Below are positions 3,076 through 61,837 of a DNA stretch of 64,000 bases, one piece after another. How positions within the stretch are numbered: position 1 is the first letter of the stretch; every line of letters starts with the position of its first letter. Made by a program: the position numbers and the translations under genes. A model generated the notes under the pieces. That model was not told where the DNA came from. It made no database searches and saw nothing but the letters and a program-made list of their open reading frames with translations. The stretch is taken from NCBI RefSeq assembly GCF_004210375.1, contig NC_134830.1, forward strand, positions 45,823,094-45,887,093. The letters run 5' to 3'. This DNA comes from Tachypleus tridentatus (taxonomy: Eukaryota; Arthropoda; Merostomata; Xiphosura; Limulidae).

Positions 3076-3985
3076 TCACAAGATTGGCTTCTTATGGGCA
3101 TCACTGCTTTCAGTATCTACTCGTTCTAGTTTTTTTTCTAAGTAACCTTGCCATTTTACCGTCCGCCAATAAGCAACTTTGATCAGTGTGTTAAAAAATA
3201 CTCTAAACACAAAGAATTTAAGCAGTATTTCAAAGGCAACATACATCAGCCAATAGCAAATTGACATGTAATAAGTGGTCTTCTTCTTGAATGATATATC
3301 CAGCAAACGACACCAAAACTTCATCATGGCAGTCCAGTTCAGAAAAGGCACGACCACGCTCATGGCCTGAATGATGTCTTTACTCATCTGGACGGATTCC
3401 GGCAATGGTGACTTAATTGTCGGTTTCCAAACAGCGTTCATGATTTCTCGACAAATAGCTTCTGTTTCTTTCAGACTTCCATCACAGATGTTGAACCGGT
3501 CGTCAAGTCCCAGCTGATAACCCACCCCTCTCCAGAAGTGTATAAGGCTCTCCAACTCTTCCCGTGAACAGTGAATCCCCAAAGATTGAGGAAATAACAC
3601 AATAAGTCCGATGAAAGAGAACTGTGTTAGAGCCATATCGTACTGAGACATAACAACTCCTCCTTGGCATGGACAGGTTATCTGGGTTTTAAAGTCTTTT
3701 TGAATGTTCGGATGTGAGTCGAATGATGATATAGGCCTACTTTTGTCGTTCAATCTATCGGCGACGTTTTTATGCATTCGTCGAGTAATTGTTATTGACT
3801 CATAAGCTGCATCTTCTGAATTCCAAATATCACCTTCGTACCACTTGCGGACGTGACGCATGGTACTCACGTAACGACGAAATATCCGCACTAGATTCGA
3901 AGAGTTACCCGTATAAAGCAATGGATTAAGCATGTTAGGAATGAAGACCAGAAATAAGAGTCCCGATAAATGGGCAAAGAATATG
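3076..3985 (-). CDS. MpaB/DUF2236 oxygenase-like protein, exon 2 (last coding exon)
   Basis: This exon encodes residues 55-357 of a 357-residue protein and ends at a TGA at 3078-3076. It begins after a good acceptor (TTTCTTTCTTCTACAG, G at 3986). The first base completes the serine codon started by exon 1, so the frame runs unbroken from 7016. Family hallmarks are visible: RRMH at 123-126, SQYDMALTQFSFIGL at 168-182, and FWRGVGYQLGLDDRFN at 205-220. These match the ER-bound oxygenase MpaB/MpaB' / rubber oxygenase catalytic family (PF09995, DUF2236), whose characterised members are haem or metal oxygenases. The histidine of RRMH is a candidate metal ligand by analogy only. Hydrophobic stretches at about 56-71 and 295-325 suggest membrane association, as for ER-bound MpaB. 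The arthropod substrate is unknown. Family call is firm; biochemical role is inference. Confidence 0.88.
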
Positions 3986-4121
3986 CTGTAGAAGAAAGAA
4001 AACGAAATATAAGTACATGAGAAGTTCAGTTAATTATTATATGACATGAAAGTGAGATCTTACAATAAACAAGAATTTGAGTGTAGTAGTGGATATTTTA
4101 ATAAGAAGTTTAATTTCTCTG

Positions 4122-42795: not shown

Positions 42796-44852
42796 ACAAA
42801 AGAGTTTGCAGCTGACCGTTGCCGGGTACATGTCTTAGGGACGAGTGTAAACGGATACGGGATTGTAGAGGGCGTTGTAGTTAGATGTTAAGTTATTAAT
42901 TAGTATAGGTATAAAGGTGTTCCTTTGTATTGATTTAATTTTGGTTTGAGTTGTTGTATAAGTAGGGCTTCTTTGATTTTGCTTTTGTTTATCTTTGTTT
43001 CCTTACTTAGGATATTGGTGTTTTCTACGGTTATATTGTGTTTATTTGATTTGCACTGTTCAAAACGTGTTAAGGTTTTTTTTGTATTTTTTAAATCTGA
43101 TTTCCATTTTCTGCTTGTTTCTCCAATATAGAAGTCGTGGCAGTTGTTGCATTGTATTTTATAAATAATGTTGGTGTTGTGTTTGTCAGTGTAGTTTTTA
43201 CATAGTATGGACTTTAGTTTTGTACCTGTTTTTTGAATAAATTTGGTGTTTACTTGAATGTTGTGTTTTGTTCTAAGTTTTTTTTCCAAATGTTGGTTTT
43301 ATTTCGCTGATGTCGGGAACATATGGTATGCAGCAGTATAAGGTTTTGTAATTTGTTGTATCTTAGAATTTATTATTGTTTGTTATTGACTGTGTTATTG
43401 ATCTAGATGTGTGTGTATAATTTTTTCCATGGTTTTTTGAGGAAATTTGTCGATGTTAATGAAGTATTGTTTTATTTTGTTGATTTCATCATTAATTTTA
43501 TAGCATAGTTTTGTGGCTGTGTTTATTTGGTTTCTTAATATGTTGAGTTTTTGTTTCGTTTCATGTGCTGAGTCCCAGGGAATGTATAGTCCAGTATGGG
43601 TGATTTTTCTGTGAATTTCTGATTTGAATTGTGTATCAGTTCTAGTGATCTTGAGGTTAAGAAATGCTGTTTGGTTAGTTGTTTTTTTCCTGTTCACAGG
43701 TAAACTTAATGTTGGGATGTATGAAGTTAACGTTGTTAAAAAAACAACAACTAAGTATGTGTTCTGTAGACATGAATCCACAATTTTATCAACATATCTG
43801 TACCAGTATAGTGATGGGTGTAAGGCTGAATTGATCACTTGAGATTCAATGTGTCATGAAAATGTTGGCTGGAACTGGTGACACGAGATTGCCCATACTT
43901 AGGTCATTTATTTGTAGGTAGTTTTGATTATTGAACATAAAGTTAGTTTTGATGGTAGTGAATTTTATAAAGTTTGCTAATTGGTTGCTGGGGGTATGTA
44001 TCAATGGGTTCGGGTCTTGGATATAAAGTTCTAAAGCTATCTTGCAGGCTTCTGTAGTTGGGACATCTGTGAAGAGGGAGATTACATCAAAACTGGCCAT
44101 TAAGGTTTTATGGTTCAGTTGATTAAGAATAGATTTATAGTTAGAAGAGTCTTTGAAAAAGGGCCCAGCTTATGTTATATATTTAGAAAATACCCACGCT
44201 ACGTATTTATCGAGACTGTAGTTAAATGATTCATAGGTCGGCATTATGGGTCGTACTGGACGATCTCGTTTGTGAGGTTTGTTTGTGCTGTATACTTGTG
44301 GCGTGCGTGAGTCGATCCTGTGTGGGTAAGAATAAAGGTTTTCTGAGATTGTGTTGGTTTTTACCATTTGCACTAGTATTTTGTTTAGTTATTTTCATGT
44401 GTTTTTGTTGGATTTGTGTGTATTGGTTTAAATTTGTTTGTATCTGATAAGAAATTGTTCATTTTTGAATGTATTCATTATTGTTCATTATAACTATAGC
44501 ATTGCTTTTATCTACTTTTAGAATTTTGATGTTATTGTTTTGTTTTAGGTTGTGTAAAGAATTAATATCTTTCCGTGCGAGTTTGTTTTTTTTTAGTTTT
44601 CTTTTCTGTGAAATTACGTTGATGTTTTTTGCGTGAAAATACTTTCAAAAATTTGTTTCAAATACTGTTTTGAGGTGTTTCTAGGAAATAGATGTTTTCA
44701 GTTCTACCTGGAAAGATAGTTTGTTGATTGTCGATAGAAATGTTGTCGAAGTTGTGTCTTCTTTCTGGTGGTTGTTTTCCGTTGTTTTGTTGGTGTTTTT
44801 GGTTTGTGTAGAATGAATCACTATCCAGCAACGATCAATTGCAATCTCTCTT

Positions 44853-50417: not shown

Positions 50418-50423
50418 TTTATT
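50418..50423 (-). terminator. Candidate poly(A) signal of the serpin gene
   Basis: AATAAA on the minus strand about 135 nt past the serpin stop. A second AATAAA overlaps the last coding codons (50564-50569). Which is used cannot be told from sequence. Confidence 0.4.
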
Positions 50424-50557: not shown

Positions 50558-50893
50558 TTATGTTTTATTCTCCAAAATACGAGGGTCAGTGTACTGACCC
50601 ATGAGAAGAATCATATTAGTTTCTAAATCTCGTAGGATGAACAAGAAAGGATGGTTAGCACAAAACACTGGAAGCTGGTCGTACACTAGCGACCTCTCTG
50701 CAGCTACGAGTTCCGTAATAGCAGCTGCTTCTGCTCCAATCTCGTCCACTTCCAGCCGAGCACTCTGAACCATTTCCTTCACAAACAAGAAATTCTGAGA
50801 ACTAATTCCGCTGAGATCTGCATACTTTGCGTCAAACAGTAGTTTCAAGCCAAGTTCCGATAAGTGTCGATGAAGGGAAAGGCGACCATCAAT
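50558..50893 (-). CDS. Membrane-anchored serpin, exon 2 (residues 361-471, reactive loop)
   Basis: Encodes the C-terminal 111 residues, entered through acceptor TTATTTCCACTTCAG (G at 50894) in phase 0, so LPKFK continues into IDGRLSLHRHLSELGLKLLF as in other serpins. The hinge is canonical for an inhibitor: Glu at P17 (411), Gly at P15, Glu at P13, Ala at P12-P10 and Thr at P8. P1-P1' is Arg427-Ser428, followed by Leu, which resembles the R-S-L bond of antithrombin and suggests trypsin- or thrombin-like target proteases. P14 is Ala, where Thr or Ser is commoner. HPFLFILRD at 441-449 and the final MGQYTDP motif complete the fold. The stop is TAA at 50560-50558. The last codons overlap an AATAAA hexamer; another lies at 50418-50423. 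Confidence 0.92.
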   Translation of the reverse strand: MDGRLSLHRHLSELGLKLLFDAKYADLSGISSQNFLFVKEMVQSARLEVDEIGAEAAAITELVAAERSLVYDQLPVFCANHPFLFILRDLETNMILLMGQYTDPRILENKT

Positions 50894-51069
50894 CTGAAGT
50901 GGAAATAACTTTTTAAAGACTTTTAATTCACATTTTATAGAACACACAAGCTAGAAAAAAATCTAAATGCTAAAGGAAATGTATGCATATTGTACTACAA
51001 CATATGATAACACAAAAATACTCGTATAAGACATATGCACTCCTCGTGTAAGTTGCCTAAAAACGGAAG

Positions 51070-51395
51070 TTAAAGAGAAACTACCAATAAATTACTAGAA
51101 GCTTCTTTAGTTGGGCATAAAAAACAAACACAAAATGCCCCTTGGGTTCAAGTCTTCATCTCCTTAGTTATGAACTTCTAATAGTAAAGTGGAGAGGAAG
51201 AATCGTAATGCAAAGAGGTTTGGAAGACTTTATCTTGAAGTGTTTTGTAAATGTTTAAAGTTAAACACGTGTTAAAGAAATTAAATAAAAGAAACTTCCA
51301 ACAAACTACTTAACGCTTCTTTAACTGGACATAAAAAATCACACTTGGGGTTGAGCCTATTTACTCATGAACCAGTAGTAAAAACTTTTAAACCT
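51070..51395. repeat. Diverged direct duplication
   Basis: Segments at about 51070-51195 and 51275-51395 share GAAACT(A/T)CCAA, ACTACT-type sequence, GCTTCTTTA and GGGTT(C/G)A in the same order. They lie in the serpin intron, close to the last exon. Confidence 0.5.
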
Positions 51396-52583
51396 GGTAT
51401 TATGTAAAATAACTTGAAACACACAGCGGACAAGACACAAACAAATAATTCAAATTTATAAACCATAACAATGAGTCGAAAATTAAAATATGTTTGCAAG
51501 ATTGCCACGAGGAGATGCGGTGCAACTTGGGTTTTGATGCTACAGTTGCTTATGGTAACAGTGAGAAGCAGACATTCAGCCAGACGTTCTGACCCAAATA
51601 TTTCTGGTTGATTATATATCAGGTTGTGTTTGATAGTTTTTTTTGTGGCTGTTAATTGTTGGAGACTGAATTATGTCTCGCTCGTTGTTTACTCCCATTT
51701 CAGCTTGTTCTGAATGTTTCTACTTTCTGTGAAAAACTATTTAAAAGACAAATTAATTCATAAACCTTAAACTATATCTGAATATGATAGCATTTTTAAT
51801 TCAATTTTGTACCACAAAAGGTCTTATGTCTCAGTGCACAATATAATTATTTAAATAACGCATGATTAGATGTTGCTTCCTTAAACAATACTGAAAAACC
51901 AAATATTTTAAGTTGTGATTTTTATGAGTTTTACTTTGTTTATCCCAATTTGCCAGTCAAAGTACAAACACACATGAAAAGTTTAATGTGCTAGTAAGAC
52001 TTATGTATATCACCGTTCAGAAAAAAATAAAAACCCCTCTAAAATTTTTTCTGAATAAAAAAAAATTGGCACAGCGATTTCTTACCCAGGAAAATAACCT
52101 TTCCGGAGCTGCCAAGTACAGAACAAATACTTTAAAACTTAGCCTTCTGTGACGCGGGAATGAGGACATTGTGACGCTCGACACGCTGTTTGGATAGGAC
52201 AGCCAAATATATAACATGTATATTTCTATTTGTCTTAATACACGAACAATAGAAAACGTTTGAGGCCTGCCACTTTCGGAAATGATTTTAAACACGTGAT
52301 GGAATTAACCCTTATTTAAAATAGGTCATATAAGGAGCCATGAACAGATACTTGCTTATCCATATCTCTGGGATCACCAAGCAAGTTGCTAGATCATTTG
52401 GTGTGAGGCAAGTAAAATAGCAATTTGTTACAATTATTGATTAACTTATTTATCCATATTACGTATACTTCAAAGTATAAGTACAGGTCTGTGCTATAAA
52501 GGTTACTGTTCGGAATTCCCTTAAGCTACGCGATCAAGATTTGTCCGACTTTTATTGTTAGAACTTAACTAACCGTCAGCAGG

Positions 52584-52700
52584 TGTGTGTTTTTCTTTTA
52601 GCAAAGCCACAAAGGCTATCTGCTCAGCCCACCGAGTGGAATCAAACCCCTGATTGGAGCGTTGTAAATCCGGAGACATACCGCTGTACTAGCGGGGGGC
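52584..52700 (-). repeat. tRNA-Val-like SINE, family B
   Basis: Minus strand, near full length, in the serpin intron. Confidence 0.9.
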
Positions 52701-53079
52701 CCGTCAGCAGGTGCTTCATAAAGTTAGAATTAAAATTTGTCACATAACTTTGATGACATAAGTTTGCAACAAACTGATAAGTCGGTCTTCACTCCAACGG
52801 AAATATGTAAAGTTAGCACTTGAAATAAGAAGTTTTACTTCGATAAACATAAATATTAATATTAAAGTTAGTTTGCAGGCTGTTTTAATTTTGAATACTT
52901 TTTCAGCTTCATTTTGTGTTTGAAAATTAGTTTTAAAATAATGAGGATTTTTACTCAGTGAGACAAGACAAACAAACAAAAAATTACAATGACAGTGAAT
53001 GGCTAATTGAATCTTCAAGGTATTTAAACTTCACTGAATGAATCTTCAAATGCTAAATGTTTTTCTCTCCAGTTCTCTG

Positions 53080-53103
53080 TGTGTGTGTGTGTGTGTGTGT
53101 TTG
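53080..53103. repeat. (GT)n microsatellite
   Basis: About ten GT repeats at the tail of a tRNA-Val-like SINE on the minus strand. Confidence 0.9.
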
Positions 53104-53210
53104 TAATTAAGCACAATACTACAAAATGGACTATCTGTCGTTTGCCCATCGCGTATCGAAACCCGGTTTCTAGCGTTATAAATCTGTAGACATAAACTTG
53201 GGGGGTGGGA
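53101..53210 (-). repeat. tRNA-Val-like SINE, family A
   Basis: Minus strand, with (GT)n on its tail side and a poor head. Confidence 0.85.
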
Positions 53211-53364
53211 GCTCCAGTTCTGACTCGCCATATACAAATTCTACATCTATTCACGTTTTATTATATATTCAAGCTCTTGCTAAAAAACGCATAAATTTCA
53301 TTAACAGTGAGGATATACAACTGAGGGTGTACATTATAATCATTATGAGCAATATACTTTGATT

Positions 53365-53530
53365 AAAAATTCAAACACAGCTAAAGTGGAATAGAAAAAA
53401 TGCATCAATTAAAAAAAGAACGTTTCGTCACTGTTAACGTGACATCACCAGATGTTAACAGTGGCGAAACGATATTTTTTTAAATAATGCATTTTTTCTA
53501 TCCCACTTTAACAGTTCTTGAATTTAAAAT
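53365..53530. repeat. Long inverted repeat with hammerhead-like core
   Basis: Two imperfect arms of about 70 bp (about 53365-53437 and 53452-53530) flank a 14-bp centre. The minus strand of the central region reads CTGGTGA, stem GTCAC/GTGAC, then GAAACG, close to a minimal hammerhead core (CUGAUGA...GAAAC). It looks like two Penelope-type terminal repeats head to head. It lies in the serpin intron. Confidence 0.6.
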
Positions 53531-54446
53531 TTTGCAATGTTGAATACCTTCAACATTTATATAATGTAGTTTGAACAGTTTGTCAAAGTAGCAATGCTCA
53601 TTACCGGGCATATAATATTGGTTCTTATCTTTGTCGGTAAGTTGCTTTGAGCTGGAAAATGTAGAGGAAAAATATTACATATACAATTTTAAACTGACTT
53701 GGACGTGTAGGCAAGTCATTTTAAACCAAAGTATTACCGTAGTTTAGTTTTAGCCTTACAGAGAGTTGCTTCAGTGAATACAAAATCATTAGTGCGTATA
53801 TTTCTTGTGAAGCACAACGCTAAGCTATACAATGGACATATTCAGGGTTGGGGAGGATTGTTAACCTAAAATATATTGTTAACAGTCGGCTTCAACAGGG
53901 TAATGCTGGTTTTAGCAAGTAGCGACACCCCCAGTATATTTATGAAAACTTCGTAACTATAACAGATGCCTAGAACAACAAATAGGGGAGTAGGTTATTA
54001 TTTTCATACTCAGACTGGCCTAATAAGGACATTTACCTCCTTCTCAGAGACAGCGTGCCGCCAGGGTACAATCCACGCAGCTGTGTGGTGGCCTGAGGCA
54101 AAATCCACAAAGATTTTTCGAACATTGCCGTTAGATGAAGGTCATTTACTACCCACTTCCCCTGGCTGCAGTAAAAGCACTAAACACTGGAAAAACTGGG
54201 GTAACTTTTTTGACTGTCAAACAGTTGCCGGTCGTCCTAATCTATCTCGATATGCCAAATGATTACTTTGACGTCGAATCCAAAACAATTCACGTATTTG
54301 TACAGAACACAACCGATTTCTTCTTGCATGTTACGTTAAGGTTTCATGGCCATCCATTCATACACCAGCGAATACTAAACACGATAAAAAGTGTAATTAT
54401 TCCGATGTGTTTCAAAATTATAAACACAAACGTTTATTATTTAGCT

Positions 54447-54562
54447 TGTTTCAAGTTAAACAGAGAGATATACAATCGGCTATCTGTGCTCTGCCCATCA
54501 AGGTTATTGAAATCTGATTTCTAGCATTGCACGTCCGGAGACACGCCACTGTGCCACTAGGG
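54447..54562 (-). repeat. tRNA-Val-like SINE, family A
   Basis: Minus strand, ends GTGCCACTAGGGA; in the serpin intron. Confidence 0.85.
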
Positions 54563-54736
54563 AGTGGTTATTATTGTTATTGTAAGTGTAAGTTATTGTA
54601 ACACATCAAACAAGCCACGTGTTTAATGAAACTAAACAAGGATAATTCCAAACAGGAATATATAAGTAACACTTAAAACCATCACTAATTGGTGAAACTT
54701 TATAATCAATAGAAATGAGGAAAACTGAGACAATTA

Positions 54737-54846
54737 GACGTTTCACAAATATTTCATTTATTGTAACCATCGTTTCGCTTGTACTTGATGAAGTTTATAG
54801 TGGCGAAACCATGGTCGTAATGAATGAAATATTTGTGAAACGTATA
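54737..54846. repeat. Second inverted repeat with hammerhead-like core
   Basis: Arms 54737-54779 and 54799-54846 share CGTTTCACAAATATTTCATT and its complement, then diverge slightly inward. The centre reads TTGATGA, then GGCGAAACC on the plus strand. The layout matches the inverted repeat 1.3 kb away, but the sequence differs, so it is a different subfamily. It lies in the serpin intron. Confidence 0.6.
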
Positions 54847-54866
54847 CTTTTCTTTGTTTTACCAGC

Positions 54867-54910
54867 TAGCCCTTGTCTAGCTTTGCGTGAAATTAAAAAA
54901 CAAACAAACA
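54867..54910 (+). repeat. tRNA-Thr-like SINE tail fragment
   Basis: Only the 3' end CTAGCTTTGCGTGAAATT and its AAAC tail remain, next to the second inverted repeat. Confidence 0.7.
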
Positions 54911-56004
54911 CTTCTGTTAATCAGAAATAACTGTACAAATGCTGCTCAGATCAAAAGCACTTGTTTTTTTTTTGTTGTTGTTTTTTTCAGTTCTCCGCGC
55001 AGTTGAACGCTTGCTATATGTGGTTTATAGATGACGCAATTGCTCAGGAAATTTTCTGTAAGTTATGTTAAAGTCATTCACTAAATTTGCAAGTATTGTT
55101 TAGTCAAATATCATTGGAATAATGTTAAAACCAGTTTTTGATTGTCCAGAACACTTGTTTATACTTTTTAAAATGCCGTAACTAAGTTCTGTATAATAAT
55201 AAATGTAGAGTTTACTTATTAAAACCAAGTTACGTATTATCTCGAAACCTTAAGATAGGCTAAATTCTGTACGTGATTTTTCATTTTCTGAATATCTGTA
55301 TCTGTTTATCTGCATGCATATATATATATTACGTAAAACTACCATTTTTGTTTTGTGCAGGCTAATACATCTATTCAATACTTTTGTACACTAGCAGTAA
55401 AAGAGTAAAAAAAATAATTTTATACCCTGTTCACACATACGACCTCACAAATATCACAAGTTTAAACTTGTATTTTGAGTGAAACAACCGGTTTCTTTGT
55501 GGCGAAAAAAAAAATGTGTGCATATTTTTGTTAGTTGTGTAATGAAAATAAGTGTTTATTATATGAGTAATTTGTTGCTTTTTATAATAATTGAAAGCAT
55601 ATTGAATAGTTTGGTTTATACAAGCAGTAGGATAACAAACTACATCGTTTTTACTCATATGGTTTACTACTTTGTATGATAAACTAAATTTTCTCCTTTT
55701 ATTTCAGGTACTTCAGTATTCTCCACACACTGACTGTCACTCGTCCAAATTTTACGAAACGAAACGTTTTAAATTTGAGTTTTATAAGAGTGACATCGAC
55801 TTAAGGCATAGAAAATAACAGTTTTCAAAATACTTGAAATATGAACAATCAGGACACAATCCAAATTTAAACCCAATAAGCTAGCACCTGTTCTTTCTCT
55901 ACATTTTACAGTTGAAGATGACATGGCAGTTTGCTCATCTTCAAGTTAAGATTGAAATTTATTAGCTTAATAACAAACGACTCTAGCGTCCTAAGGCGGG
56001 ATTA

Positions 56005-56017
56005 CCCCCCCCCCCCC
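56005..56017. repeat. Poly(C) run of 13
   Basis: An uninterrupted C13, so a G13 run on the serpin sense strand, about 330 bp from the minisatellite. Confidence 0.9.
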
Positions 56018-56344
56018 TTCCAAGGATGCAGGATGACGCAGAAGAAACTGAAAGTTGGCATAATATCACGTTTGTTTAAACAGCAGTTGGTAACACTATT
56101 GAGCTGTTGATTCAATATATCTCTTTTTGCAATTCGGGTATGGGAACTCGTTTTCCGCTAGCGAGTACATTGTCTTTCTTTAAAGTTGAAGATCCTTATC
56201 AACCTAAACTGTTTTAAAAACACATTTTAATTGATCTTATGAATAAATCTATGTGATAATTTTCTTTATCGTGTATGAGTTTACGTGCTTGAAGTGCAAC
56301 AGGGATGTACTGGATCAAGCTCTGCGCTCTAATAAAAGAAGAAA

Positions 56345-58955
56345 CGATAAAACTTACAACACGAGTAGTATTACGATAAAACTTACAACACGAGTAGTAT
56401 TACAATAAAACTTACAACACGAGTAGTATTACAATAAAACTTACAACACGAGTAGTATTACGATAAAACTTACAACACGAGTAGTATTACAATAAAACTT
56501 ACAACACGAGTAGTATTACGATAAAACTTACAACACGAGTAGTATTACAATAAAACTTACAACACGAGTAGTATTACAATAAAACTTACAACACGAGTAG
56601 TATTACAATAAAACTTACAACACGAGTAGTATTACAATAAAACTTACAACACGAGTAGTATTACAATAAAACTTACAACACGAGTAGTATTACAATAAAA
56701 CTTACAACACGAGTAGTATTACGATAAAACTTACAACACGAGTAGTATTACAATAAAACTTACAACACGAGTAGTATTACGATAAAACTTACAACACGAG
56801 TAGTATTACAATAAAACTTACAACACGAGTGGTATTACAATAAAACTTACAACACGAGTGGTATTACGATAAAACTTACAACACGTGGTATTACGATAAA
56901 ACTTACAACACGGTAGTATTACGATAAAACTTACAACACGAGTGGTATTACAATAAAATTTACAACACGAGTAGTATCACAATAAAACTTACAATACAAC
57001 ACGAGTAGTATTACAATAAAACTTACAACACGAGTAGTATTACGATAAAACTTACAACACGAGTAGTATTACCATAAAACTTACAACACGAGTAGTATTA
57101 CGATAAAACTTACAACACGAGTAGTATTACAATAAAACTTACAACACGAGTAGTATTACGATAAAACTTACAACACGAGTAGTATTACGATAAAACTTAC
57201 AACACGAGTAGTATTACAATAAAACTTACAACACGAGTAGTATTACGATAAAACTTACAACACGAGTAGTATTACGATAAAACTTACAACACGAGTAGTA
57301 TTACGATAAAACTTACAACACGAGTAGTATTACAATAAAACTTACAACACGAGTAGTATTACGATAAAACTTACAACACGAGTAGTATTACAATAAAACT
57401 TACAACACGAGTAGTATTACAATAAAACTTACAACACGAGTAGTATTACAATAAAACTTACAACACGAGTGGTATTACAATAAAACTTACAACACGGGTA
57501 GTATTACGATAAAACTTACAACACGAGTAGTATTACGATAAAACTTACAACACGAGTAGTATTACAATAAAACTTATAACACGAGTGGTATTACGATAAA
57601 ACTTACAACACGAGTGGTATTACGATAAAACTTACAACACGAGTGGTATTACAATAAAACTTACAACACGAGTAGTATTACGATAAAACTTACAACACGA
57701 GTGGTATTACGATAAAACTTACAACACGAGTGGTATTACAATAAAACTTACAACACGAGTGGTATTACAATAAAACTTACAACACGAGTGGTATTACGAT
57801 AAAACTTACAACACGTGGTATTACGATAAAACTTACAACACGGTGGTATTACGATAAAACTTACAACACGAGTAGTATTACAATAAAAACTTACAACACG
57901 AGTGGTATTACAATAAAACTTACAACACGGGTAGTATTACGATAAAACTTACAACACGAGTAGTATTACCATAAAACTTACAACACGAGTAGTATTACGA
58001 TAAAACTTACAACACGAGTGGTATTACAATAAAACTTACAACACGAGTAGTATTACGATAAAACTTACAACACGAGTAGTATTACAATAAAACTTACAAC
58101 ACGAGTAGTATTACAATAAAACTTACAACACGGGTAGTATTACGATAAAACTTACAACACGAGTGGTATTACAATAAAACTTACAACACGAGTAGTATTA
58201 CGATAAAACTTACAACACGAGTAGTATTACAATAAAACTTACAACACGAGTAGTATAACGATAAAACTTACAACACGAGTAGTATTACAATAAAACTTAC
58301 AACACGAGTAGTATTACGATAAAACTTACAACACGAGTAGTATTACGATAAAACTTACAACACGAGTGGTATTACAATAAAACTTACAACACGAGTAGTA
58401 TTACGATAAAACTTACAACACGAGTGGTATTACGATAAAACTTACAACACGAGTGGTATTACGATAAAACTTACAACACGAGTAGTATTACAATAAAACT
58501 TACAACACGAGTGGTATTACGATAAAACTTACAACACGAGTAGTATTACAATAAAACTTACAACACGAGTAGTATTACGATAAAACTTACAACACGAGTA
58601 GTATTACGATAAAACTTACAACACGAGTAGTATTACGATAAAACTTACAACACGAGTAGTATTACGATAAAACTTACAACACGAGTAGTATTACGATAAA
58701 ACTTACAACACGAGTAGTATTACAATAAAACTTACAACACGAGTAGTATTACGATAAAACTTACAACACGAGTAGTATTACAATAAAACTTACAACACGA
58801 GTAGTATTACAATAAAACTTACAACACGAGTAGTATTACGATAAAATTTACAACACGAGTAGTATTACAATAAAACTTACAACACGAGTAGTATTACGAT
58901 AAAACTTACAACACGAGTAGTATTACAATAAAACTTACAACACGAGTAGTATTAC
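56345..58955. repeat. 29-bp minisatellite, about 90 copies
   Basis: A tandem array of about 2.6 kb; the unit contains ACTTACAACACGAGTAGTAT and is 29 bp long. Units differ mainly at two sites: CG/CA before ATAAAA, and AGTAG/AGTGG. A few units carry small indels. There are no unique spacers. On the serpin sense strand each unit contains TTGTAAGT, a 5' splice-site-like word. Confidence 0.97.
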
Positions 58956-59267
58956 AAACCACTTTCTAAAAAAATGCAATGTTGTTCGTTTTCTCTTGTC
59001 ACCCTCCATTCTCATAAAGAATTTCACTTTATAACATCAAAATTTCTTGCCACTAATAAGCTAAGAAAACCAGATATTAACCAGAAGATGAGGACATTAT
59101 ACCCTAAATTATGAAAATGTAAAGAAAGAACCAGAACATGAACTTCGATCGTTGAACATAAGGTGTACCAAAGTTTACACCTCTTTTGGTAATGCCTAGG
59201 GAAAGAATTGCGTTACACATTTATGGTTTTAAAATGTATGATTTTCATTGGAGAAGAATATTTTTGC

Positions 59268-59500
59268 CTAAAGCTGCGCAAAGGATTATCCGTTAAAGTC
59301 GTCTTTCATTTTGAGCGGAGTAGTGGAAGTTGGGAAAATAGCTGGTGAAAAGGACTCACAGCCATCTCTCGGGCTACTTTTGTTAGACTGCTTAATGACA
59401 TTTGACCATCAACCTTATAGCCTCAAAGCGTGGAAACGCAAAATAGAAATCCTCGTATCCACACTCGGAGCATGCTAACTCCAGATTACGCCTGGCTCGG
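59268..59500 (-). repeat. tRNA-Thr-like SINE, strongly diverged
   Basis: Retains CTCGGGCTACTTTTGTTAG and CCAGATTACG blocks; minus strand; in the serpin intron. Confidence 0.6.
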
Positions 59501-59537
59501 GGAAAGGGGTTGGATGGAGACATAGCGTATGTGATTT

Positions 59538-59640
59538 GTTTATTTGTTTAGAATTAAGCACAAAGCTACACAATGGACTATCTGTGCTTTGCCCATCACG
59601 GGTATCAAAACCTGGTTTTTAGCTGTTTGCTACTGGGGGG
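59538..59640 (-). repeat. tRNA-Val-like SINE, family A, internal deletion
   Basis: Minus strand; anticodon-arm region deleted after CCTGGTTTTTAG. Confidence 0.85.
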
Positions 59641-60063
59641 AGCATATACGAAGTCGCGAAGGGAATGAATAAAAACACAAATTGTGTCACTTTATAATCA
59701 TCTAGTGTGTACACCTTACGTGTCGTAATTTTGTTGTAATTATTCAAACATTAAGAATGTCTTTGTGCAAACTTATTGTTTTTCTTATCCATTTTGTGCT
59801 TCTACTAGCATATGTTCTCTCTTGTGCAACAGAAAAAACAGAAATAATTATATATTTTTATATGTGTTATTATATTATTCGAATTATTATTCTTGTTTTA
59901 ATCATTTCTGGCATCACGTCAACGGTAAGAGAAGATACAATTTTAAAAAATAAATCTAATAACAGAGTAACTTTCATACCTAAATAAATAGTTTATATTT
60001 TATGCAGTTGTACTTAACTATAATTATTAAAGCATATATACCAATGCAAAATCTAAGCCTTAC

Positions 60064-61143
60064 TTTGAATTTAGGTAGGCAGATATACAAGGTTTTGTTC
60101 TTCATGTGTCCATTAAGCTCGCTTAAAATTTCAGGGTTTTCTTGTAAGATTTTACGTACTTCAGACAATCGTCCAGGTTTATTTGGCAGAATCAGAAGGA
60201 GACTTAACTTATCTCCATCAATCGGTAGCTCCAGTGATTGCAAACCTAGTGTGGTAAATTCCCCATAATTGTAATTTCCAGTTGTATGCATCATGTGAAC
60301 AGTGGCTTCATCATCTGGTTGAACATAAAATCTGGTTTGAAAAGTGTTTTGTTTTGGGAAAGCGTGTAACCACTGACCTTTGAAATACATAACAGTGGTC
60401 ATCAGAAGACGGGTAGTTAGGTCAAGCTGATTGGGTCTCAAAAGCTCTCTGACTTGTCCCCACGTTTTTTTAGACACCCACGTGTTTATGATTTCACGAG
60501 TTTCTTCTTCCTCCACGAAATTAACTTCAGTTGCTACACATTCGTAATTTTGTTTCAACTGATCATTAAACTTAGAAGTAATCTCGAAGTTTTTCTGAAT
60601 AAATATGTTTCCTCCTATGTATAATTTAGTGTATATGTCTGTCTTTCGATTCAAATCTCGCAGCAAGAAACCTAAGCCATTCTGGATTTCGAATGCTGAT
60701 GCAGGATTCCAATTAAGAACAGAACAAATTTCTTCAGCAGTGTGCCCTTTGGATCCTTCTAATATCATTGACAAACCAATAACCAAACTTAAAGGGCTAA
60801 ATATTATGTTGGCATTATTCTCAGCCATTAAGGGCAAGAGCTTAAAGGCAAGTTTCGATGTCCCTAACTGGACTTCCTGTGTTTCTGGAACATCCTGGAG
60901 AGAGCCATGGCTCGCAGTGAACAGATTCCACCCCAGAAGGATTACTAAAAAGGACAGAAAAAATAGTATATGTAAGCCTGCGATAATCCAAATATTAACA
61001 GCACTGAGAGCCCAAAAAGGGGCGGCGTTAAAGGCTGAGGTTTGTTTATCAGAAAGTTTAATTTCAACACCCCAGTCAACATCTCTATTTAAATCATCTT
61101 CTTTCTTCTCAGATTTCTTTTGGGTAGTTATCGGTGGTTTCAT
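60064..61143 (-). CDS. Membrane-anchored serpin, exon 1 (residues 1-360)
   Basis: Encodes the N-terminus and most of the serpin fold of a 471-residue protein. The ATG at 61143 follows an in-frame TAA at 61206-61204. Residues 1-45 are hydrophilic and rich in Lys. Residues about 46-72 form one long hydrophobic segment (ALSAVNIWIIAGLHILFF onward). The serpin body starts near 95: NIIFSPLSLVIGLSM at 112-126, INTWVSKKTWGQVRELL at 219-235, VMYFKGQW at 251-258 and LSLLLILPN at 313-321. It ends LPKFK at 356-360, right before the donor AAA|GTAAGG (60064/60063). Positive residues on the N side predict a type II anchor with the serpin domain outside the cell or in the secretory lumen. Serpins inhibit serine proteases by suicide trapping. 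An NKT glycosylation sequon is at 349-351. The family call is firm; topology is inferred. Confidence 0.92.
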
Positions 61144-61837
61144 GATGGAAAGCGTGCGAGATTTTGGAAGAAAACTTGATTTAAATAAGGGTATATATCT
61201 ATCTTATTTATTCCGTGGTGTAACAGCTTTGACGCAGTGGGTTTGTCTTTCTAACTAACAACAGGTGTATTAGGGAGAAAGACTATCGTTGAATATTGGC
61301 ACGTGAAAGAGTGTGTTATATAATTTCTATTGGCTGTTCACCACCTGTTGGTTCTATGCGTATTTCATGGGCTTACCACCTGTTCTGTGTTGTATATGTA
61401 TTTGTTTACATGTGGATCAAATACTTGTTTGTTTCTGTACCGCTGTGTGTGAGATTTTAGTCTTAAACTAATCTGTTAGTATCGTAAATAACGTTCTAAA
61501 ACAATCAACTGAATTGCAAACTAATCGTATTAATAGCTATGAGAAAACAACAACAAAAGGAAAATCGTTACTGAACAAATAATTATTTTTGATAAGTCAT
61601 AATTACCAAAGAACAACAGCCATTTATTGATTTTGTTGCAAAAATCCAACCACACAACTTTATAGAATTTCACCTCAAATTAAACCAAACTACAACAATA
61701 ATAATTTAGTTACAATTCATATCTATTTTTTGTAATACCATATGCCTTTATATTAAATTTTTAGTGTATACTTTTTATCACAAGCTTTTGGTGAAAAATG
61801 TCTGCCGTGAATCAAAATATGAAATCATATTGTCAAG

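Follow-up and report, generated by a model that had tools for sequence, protein, structure and literature searches.

The stretch of DNA analysed here, 64,000 nucleotides of the horseshoe crab Tachypleus tridentatus (contig NC_134830.1, positions 45,823,094 to 45,887,093 of the forward strand; below, the window), carries on its minus strand a serpin gene whose product is probably fixed in the membrane by an N-terminal signal anchor of its own. The gene occupies positions 50558-61143 of the window and consists of two exons, joined in phase 0, that encode 471 amino acids. Exon 1 ends at a GT donor (AAA/GTAAGG) and exon 2 follows the acceptor ttccacttcag/ATT. The reading frame, two-exon structure and coordinates proposed in an initial annotation of the sequence proved correct, and its overall observation, a serpin with a hydrophobic segment near the N-terminus, was confirmed by the open reading frame, the exon structure, the Pfam match and hydropathy. 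The parts of the gene are as follows.

61143-60064, minus strand: exon 1, residues 1-360, with the N-terminal extension, the hydrophobic segment and the serpin core up to LPKFK.
61009-61143, minus strand: residues 1-45, the hydrophilic, coding-like N-terminus with 8 Lys/Arg and 8 Asp/Glu.
60919-61008, minus strand: residues 46-75, putative membrane span or signal anchor.
60895-61044, minus strand: residues 34-83, 50 residues without Asp, Glu, Lys or Arg.
60064-60861, minus strand: exon 1 part of the serpin domain, residues 95-360, from the Pfam match.
50894-60063: intron of 9170 bases, phase 0, containing a 29-base tandem array.
50893-50558, minus strand: exon 2, residues 361-471 and the stop codon, holding the reactive-centre loop.
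50690-50743, minus strand: reactive-centre loop, P17 Glu411 to P1' Ser428, with predicted P1 Arg427.
50418-50423, minus strand: polyadenylation signal AATAAA.

As the initial annotation had described, a hydrophilic start of 45 residues is followed by a long hydrophobic segment, whose core spans residues ~46-75 by hydropathy; the Kyte-Doolittle profile (19-residue window) peaks at 2.66 over residues 51-69. Judged from hydropathy only, a span of ~20 or more residues follows a hydrophilic N-terminus, as in type II membrane proteins. The n-region runs to ~45 residues and the hydrophobic core to at least ~25, so that the sequence displays no apparent pattern of a cleavable signal peptide. Provided that translation does begin at 61143, an ordinary signal peptide would be neither as long nor as distant from the N-terminus as this segment, which should act as an uncleaved signal anchor. 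The C-terminal side of the segment is the more negative one (D84, E87 and E90, with no Lys or Arg before K97), and the N-terminal side carries K29 and K33 together with E27 and D32, a charge difference that mildly favours an N-in orientation. Taken from the sequence, a type II (N-in, C-out) signal-anchored serpin is the product that we hold to be probable, with somewhat better than even confidence.

A search of the whole genome (2.17 Gb, the window lying on its contig C6) for the serpin family returned 69 matches, many consisting of one exon only, and a search with exon 1 returned 51 (from 55 candidates, all scored). No second copy of residues 1-56 was found genome-wide; in the exon 1 search this 56-residue extension was matched by the gene itself and by nothing else. 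The other exon 1 matches start at residue 57 or later, and the alignment of several sister signal peptides sets in at about residue 57-71. For comparison we used 34 other serpin N-termini, a set that represents part of the serpin loci of the genome and includes near-duplicates and some hand-picked starts; it omits fragments and reading frames without a usable start (for example, L013, L014, L038-L041, L044 and L045) and the first exons of L020 and L021. By hydropathy, a hydrophobic, signal-peptide-like segment starts at residue 1-11 in 31 of the 34, the exceptions being L005, L015 and L022, and the four first exons of L020/L021 have, close to their beginning, a Met and a brief hydrophobic run. 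The hydrophobic segment of our gene is longer and lies further in than those of the 34 compared N-termini, and its copy of the conserved FSP-like motif is located at residue 114 versus residue 29-75 in 27 of the 34 sisters, where the simple pattern matched.

These dimensions bear on the proposal that the start is right but the segment serves as a long signal peptide, cut by signal peptidase after residue 78-80 (TAS/HG or SHG/S) to release the serpin. By the usual rule, signal peptidase cuts where the residues at -3/-1 are small, and this rule permits both TAS/HG and SHG/SL. A charged n-region of 45 residues followed by a core at least 25 residues long is, however, unlike the 31 signal-peptide-like sister N-termini, and we consider cleavage of this kind very improbable.

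No close paralogue of the gene was found in the genome; identities amount to at most ~35% over long alignments and are higher only over short stretches. In the tree its end branch measures 1.84 and pairs with the likewise long branch of L016, and the place of the gene is unsure because of this great branch length. Among its relatives in the genome, exon 1 scores best against two, L015 and L022, both devoid of a signal-peptide-like segment, as might be expected if the protein took the opposite orientation or resided in an intracellular membrane, its serpin domain facing the cytosol and guarding it against proteases that leak from granules or lysosomes. Such an arrangement is extremely improbable, given the charge difference described above and the alignment of several sister signal peptides with the hydrophobic segment.

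Two further groups of family members stood out in the genome search. L032/L033 and L038/L039 (contig C1, ~183.04-183.06 and 182.69-182.71 Mb) lie in near-identical blocks with matching serpin genes, which represent either recent segmental duplications or unmerged assembly haplotypes. On contig C10 of the same genome (G000, 4.397-4.420 Mb), L020, L021 and L045 are tandem serpin copies with a common exon pattern, at least one of which has a stop in the matched stretch.

The serpin domain of our gene is complete: the Pfam Serpin profile (PF00079) is matched from position 3 to 370 of 370 by residues 95-464 (E=1.9e-95). Matches to solved structures (the best 60 of 196 distinct sequences) span the domain and the hinge, and the best are serpins, for example 8gxv, conserpin and leukocyte elastase inhibitor. 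In inhibitory serpins the hinge has Glu at P17, Gly at P15 and small residues at P14-P10, and the usual 17-residue loop spacing places P1. The loop from P17 to P1' reads EIGAEAAAITELVAAER/S, and its P17-P10 stretch, E-I-G-A-E-A-A-A, is of the inhibitory type, with Glu at P17, Gly at P15, small residues at P14-P10 and the usual Glu at P13; Ile at P9 is a mild departure. The same spacing makes Arg427 the predicted P1, and the target is therefore likely to be a trypsin-like protease. The full inhibitory serpin domain of the initial annotation is thus predicted with the support of the Pfam match, the structure matches and the hinge. NKT sites are found at residues 349 and 469 of the predicted protein.

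Residues 1-45 look truly coding. We scored codons with a model trained on sister serpins (the gene itself left out) and on the non-coding rest of the window, a design that favours the sister coding controls and in which the non-coding set may hold unannotated exons. Residues 1-45 reach +8.7 bits, the range in coding stretches of the sisters (codons 31-75) being 3.1 to 14.3. The 45 in-frame codons upstream of the start yield -4.9 to -31.2 in all 23 sister genes tested (stops penalised, near-duplicates included); upstream parts that are open over at least 11 codons are negative in 14 of 14 sisters, and open bits of at most 5 codons are slightly positive in 5 of 9. Among 6000 dinucleotide-preserving shuffles of residues 1-45, 132 were open and only 2 scored as high. 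The corresponding numbers were 75 and 2 for residues 1-56, and 31 and 0 for residues 1-66; with 12 sister coding stretches as controls, nine gave 0/1000 and the remaining three 1, 5 and 19. The score of residues 1-45 is attained by 0.33% of 2100 (overlapping) open 45-codon non-coding stretches, and by 3 of 122 that start with ATG; two of these three overlap and could belong to a genuine exon, where Pfam finds no match. The nearest upstream in-frame stop lies at 61204-61206. Followed along the frame, the running coding score is negative before the ATG at 61143, becomes positive near it and falls once more over part of the hydrophobic segment.

Several observations weigh against a start at 61143. 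One group concerns the coding signal: 2.8% of 686 open non-coding 62-codon stretches reach the score of residues 1-62, the hydrophobic residues 46-73 score -1.7, and synonymous codon choice alone gives -1.0 for residues 1-45, near the non-coding mean of -1.7. Synonymous choice is thus uninformative, and the coding signal stems mostly from amino-acid make-up.

The other group concerns splice acceptors, which we scored with a generic weight matrix not tuned to this genome, so that the scores are rough; the acceptor of exon 2 attains only 0.72. Among 23 sister genes whose main exon contains a Met (drawn from L001-L037, near-duplicates included), 22 have an acceptor-like site scoring at least 1.0 within 32 bases before the ATG, and in 20 that site scores at least 2.9. 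This pattern suggests that a 5' intron, apparently conserved in the family, ends immediately ahead of the start codon and of a largely uninterrupted coding region. In our gene the best acceptor-like score within 35 bases before 61143 is -3.2, and there is no notable site upstream of it (best, 1.1 at -329). The four top scores of exon 1 (4.65, 3.07, 3.06 and 2.87) fall at residues 67, 84, 56 and 47, where the starts of sister signal peptides would align; no Met is present there, the first three of the predicted protein being residues 1, 106 and 126. Three of these sites lie in the anchor-coding segment.

AG ending 61004, 60978 and 60945, minus strand: acceptor-like sites at which splicing would occur if the N-terminus were a read-through artefact; the strongest (4.65) is attttttctgtcctttttag/TA at 60945, and those at 60978 and 61004 are weaker.

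Moreover, the main exons of L038, L039 and L040 have no Met before the serpin domain and show acceptor-like sites of 7.6, 7.2 and 2.7 at the start of the signal-peptide-like region. Their ATG is therefore presumably in an earlier exon, and an upstream start exon presumably has precedent in the family.

These data would be explained if an upstream ATG exon were spliced to 61003, 60977 or 60944, residues 1 to ~47-66 being the translated tail of an intron and the product an ordinary secreted serpin. Since polypyrimidine tracts encode Phe, Leu and Ser, an intron end that is read through can look like a hydrophobic span. L023 (1038-2525, minus strand) provides an example: its frame remains open across its acceptor for 71 codons ahead of the likely start, and its first-ATG reading yields a false hydrophilic tail followed by a long hydrophobic segment. 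With the apparent 5' intron of the family, gene prediction could easily invent anchored serpins, a warning for the annotation of this genome. The alignment of several sister signal peptides from about residue 57-71 points the same way, and a scan of ~9.8 kb upstream gave possible ATG exons with good donors (for example, 68164-68133), although the scan had no control and two of its 12 combinations were broken by stops. We nevertheless regard a read-through artefact, the main threat to the anchor reading, as unlikely. The false extension of L023 scores -8.0 bits versus +8.7 for residues 1-45, a value that the shuffles hardly ever match, and acceptor-like scores of at least 4.65 are encountered somewhere within 15 of 26 sister reading frames, though in the first 40 codons of only one (L018+), whose first-ATG reading seems to span an acceptor. 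As no GTRAG donor-like site exists between 61143 and 60945, the anchor segment is not evidently a small in-frame intron either.

A coding-like N-terminus and acceptor-like sites at the intron position expected for the family could be reconciled by two isoforms, an anchored one made from a proximal promoter and a secreted one in which a distal exon is spliced into 60977 or 60944. A candidate for the proximal promoter is located upstream of the ATG.

61316-61322, minus strand: TATATAA, 32 bases before TCA; a possible but weak core promoter.

TATATAA and TCA lie at -179/-147 relative to the ATG. The same pair occurs by chance in 65 of 568 test stretches (11%), its support for the start site is weak, and we judge the two-isoform model improbable.

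The type II anchor put forward in the initial annotation is hence still the best reading of the sequence, upheld by the coding-like residues 1-45; the acceptor-like sites within the anchor-coding segment and the apparent 5' intron of the sisters qualify it. Tentatively, both sides might be accommodated by the origin of the gene: a secreted serpin may have become anchored by retaining the 3' end of its 5' intron as exon, the polypyrimidine tract being fused to the old signal peptide, a history that is possible, if less than even in probability. The Phe/Leu/Ser-reading tract and the old signal peptide would together form the long signal anchor, and the preceding sequence would have turned into a constrained cytosolic tail. 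Exonisation of the intron end would thereby account at once for the acceptor-like remnants, the loss of the start Met and the coding character of the tail.

For the type II anchored serpin we propose the following mode of action. Translated from 61143, the chain would be anchored by a ~45-residue cytosolic tail and one uncleaved hydrophobic segment (~46-75), and the serpin domain would be held on the lumenal or outer face of the membrane, at the cell surface or in a granule. A trypsin-like serine protease would cleave after Arg427, the loop would insert, and the covalent complex of the serpin suicide mechanism would stay tethered. That it might act in haemocytes as a localised brake on clotting proteases, as the initial annotation imagined, is a guess from the animal and not from the gene.

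In the remainder of the window, the serpin intron contains a tandem array at 56344-58955 (90 copies of a 29-base unit, 95% matches). An open stretch at 3079-4029 (minus strand) matches MPAB_Lcp_cat, the family of ER (endoplasmic reticulum)-bound oxygenase mpaB and rubber oxygenase (E=7.2e-08), and is probably an exon of an unrelated neighbouring gene. Two adjacent open stretches at 42900-43853 (minus strand) resemble retroelement fragments and gave no Pfam family above the cut-off. Rfam at gathering thresholds found no match in the 64-kb window, and viral and prokaryote contig collections contained no relative of the serpin gene, as expected for an animal gene.

Coagulogen is a horseshoe-crab clotting protein, and the horseshoe-crab setting assumed in the initial annotation is borne out by coagulogen-family genes in the same genome. 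The Coagulin family (PF02035) has 19 matches there, and four stretches on contig C11 jointly account for the greater part of the profile; the 14 control genomes gave no match, but the named controls are microbes and this says little. The horseshoe-crab coagulation inhibitors LICI-1, LICI-2 and LICI-3 are serpins with a conventional secretory signal peptide. Our gene resembles them and the secreted-type sisters (for example, L001, L003 and L018) in its serpin domain, inhibitory-type hinge and animal group. It is set apart from LICI, by description, by the ~45 residues, many of them charged, ahead of its hydrophobic segment, and from the secreted-type sisters by the 56-residue extension and low identity (at most ~35% over long alignments). 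LICI-1 and LICI-2 are named in PMC5438962 and cited in PMC7878551.

Serpins are usually described as either secreted or intracellular. The protease inhibitors HAI-1 and HAI-2 have their anchor on the C side, and to our knowledge the orthopoxvirus serpin K2/SPI-3 lacks an anchor of its own. According to PMC5837738, HAI-1 and HAI-2 (SPINT1/SPINT2) are membrane-anchored Kunitz inhibitors. If our reading is right, they share with the horseshoe-crab protein the principle of a membrane-fixed inhibitor of trypsin-like proteases and differ from it in their Kunitz domains, an unrelated fold with reversible canonical inhibition. K2/SPI-3 is likewise a serpin at the plasma membrane, where it acts on fusion, but is there in complex with A56 (PMC3386626, in part). 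Clade B serpins have also been found at membranes, SerpinB2 by binding phosphatidylserine (PMC4101741) and serpinB3 by detection on the surface of mononuclear cells (PMC8774208), and the accessible portions of these papers describe no transmembrane anchor. The large serpin family of the tick Ixodes scapularis resembles our gene in being chelicerate and having members with a basic P1 (16 sequences); it differs in that 82% are putatively extracellular with a signal peptide, and the word 'transmembrane' is absent from the main text of the paper (PMC2689274). Within their accessible parts, PMC13303414 and PMC4223420 give no transmembrane helix or domain in their serpins, and PMC4322644, PMC5438962, PMC7437470, PMC7878551 and PMC4833078 describe no serpin with its own anchor; nor did we find one in the open-licence literature on membrane-anchored, horseshoe-crab, chelicerate and arthropod serpins, as far as its text was available. 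Anchored protease inhibitors (HAI-1/HAI-2) and a surface serpin held by a partner (poxvirus) are thus already known, and the novelty of a serpin with its own anchor depends on the N-terminus.

If this N-terminus is real, a single-chain anchored serpin would constitute a local, non-diffusible, one-shot brake. It would matter for the way in which an animal whose haemolymph clots through an explosive cascade shields its own cells, and it may represent a signal peptide that was converted into an anchor.

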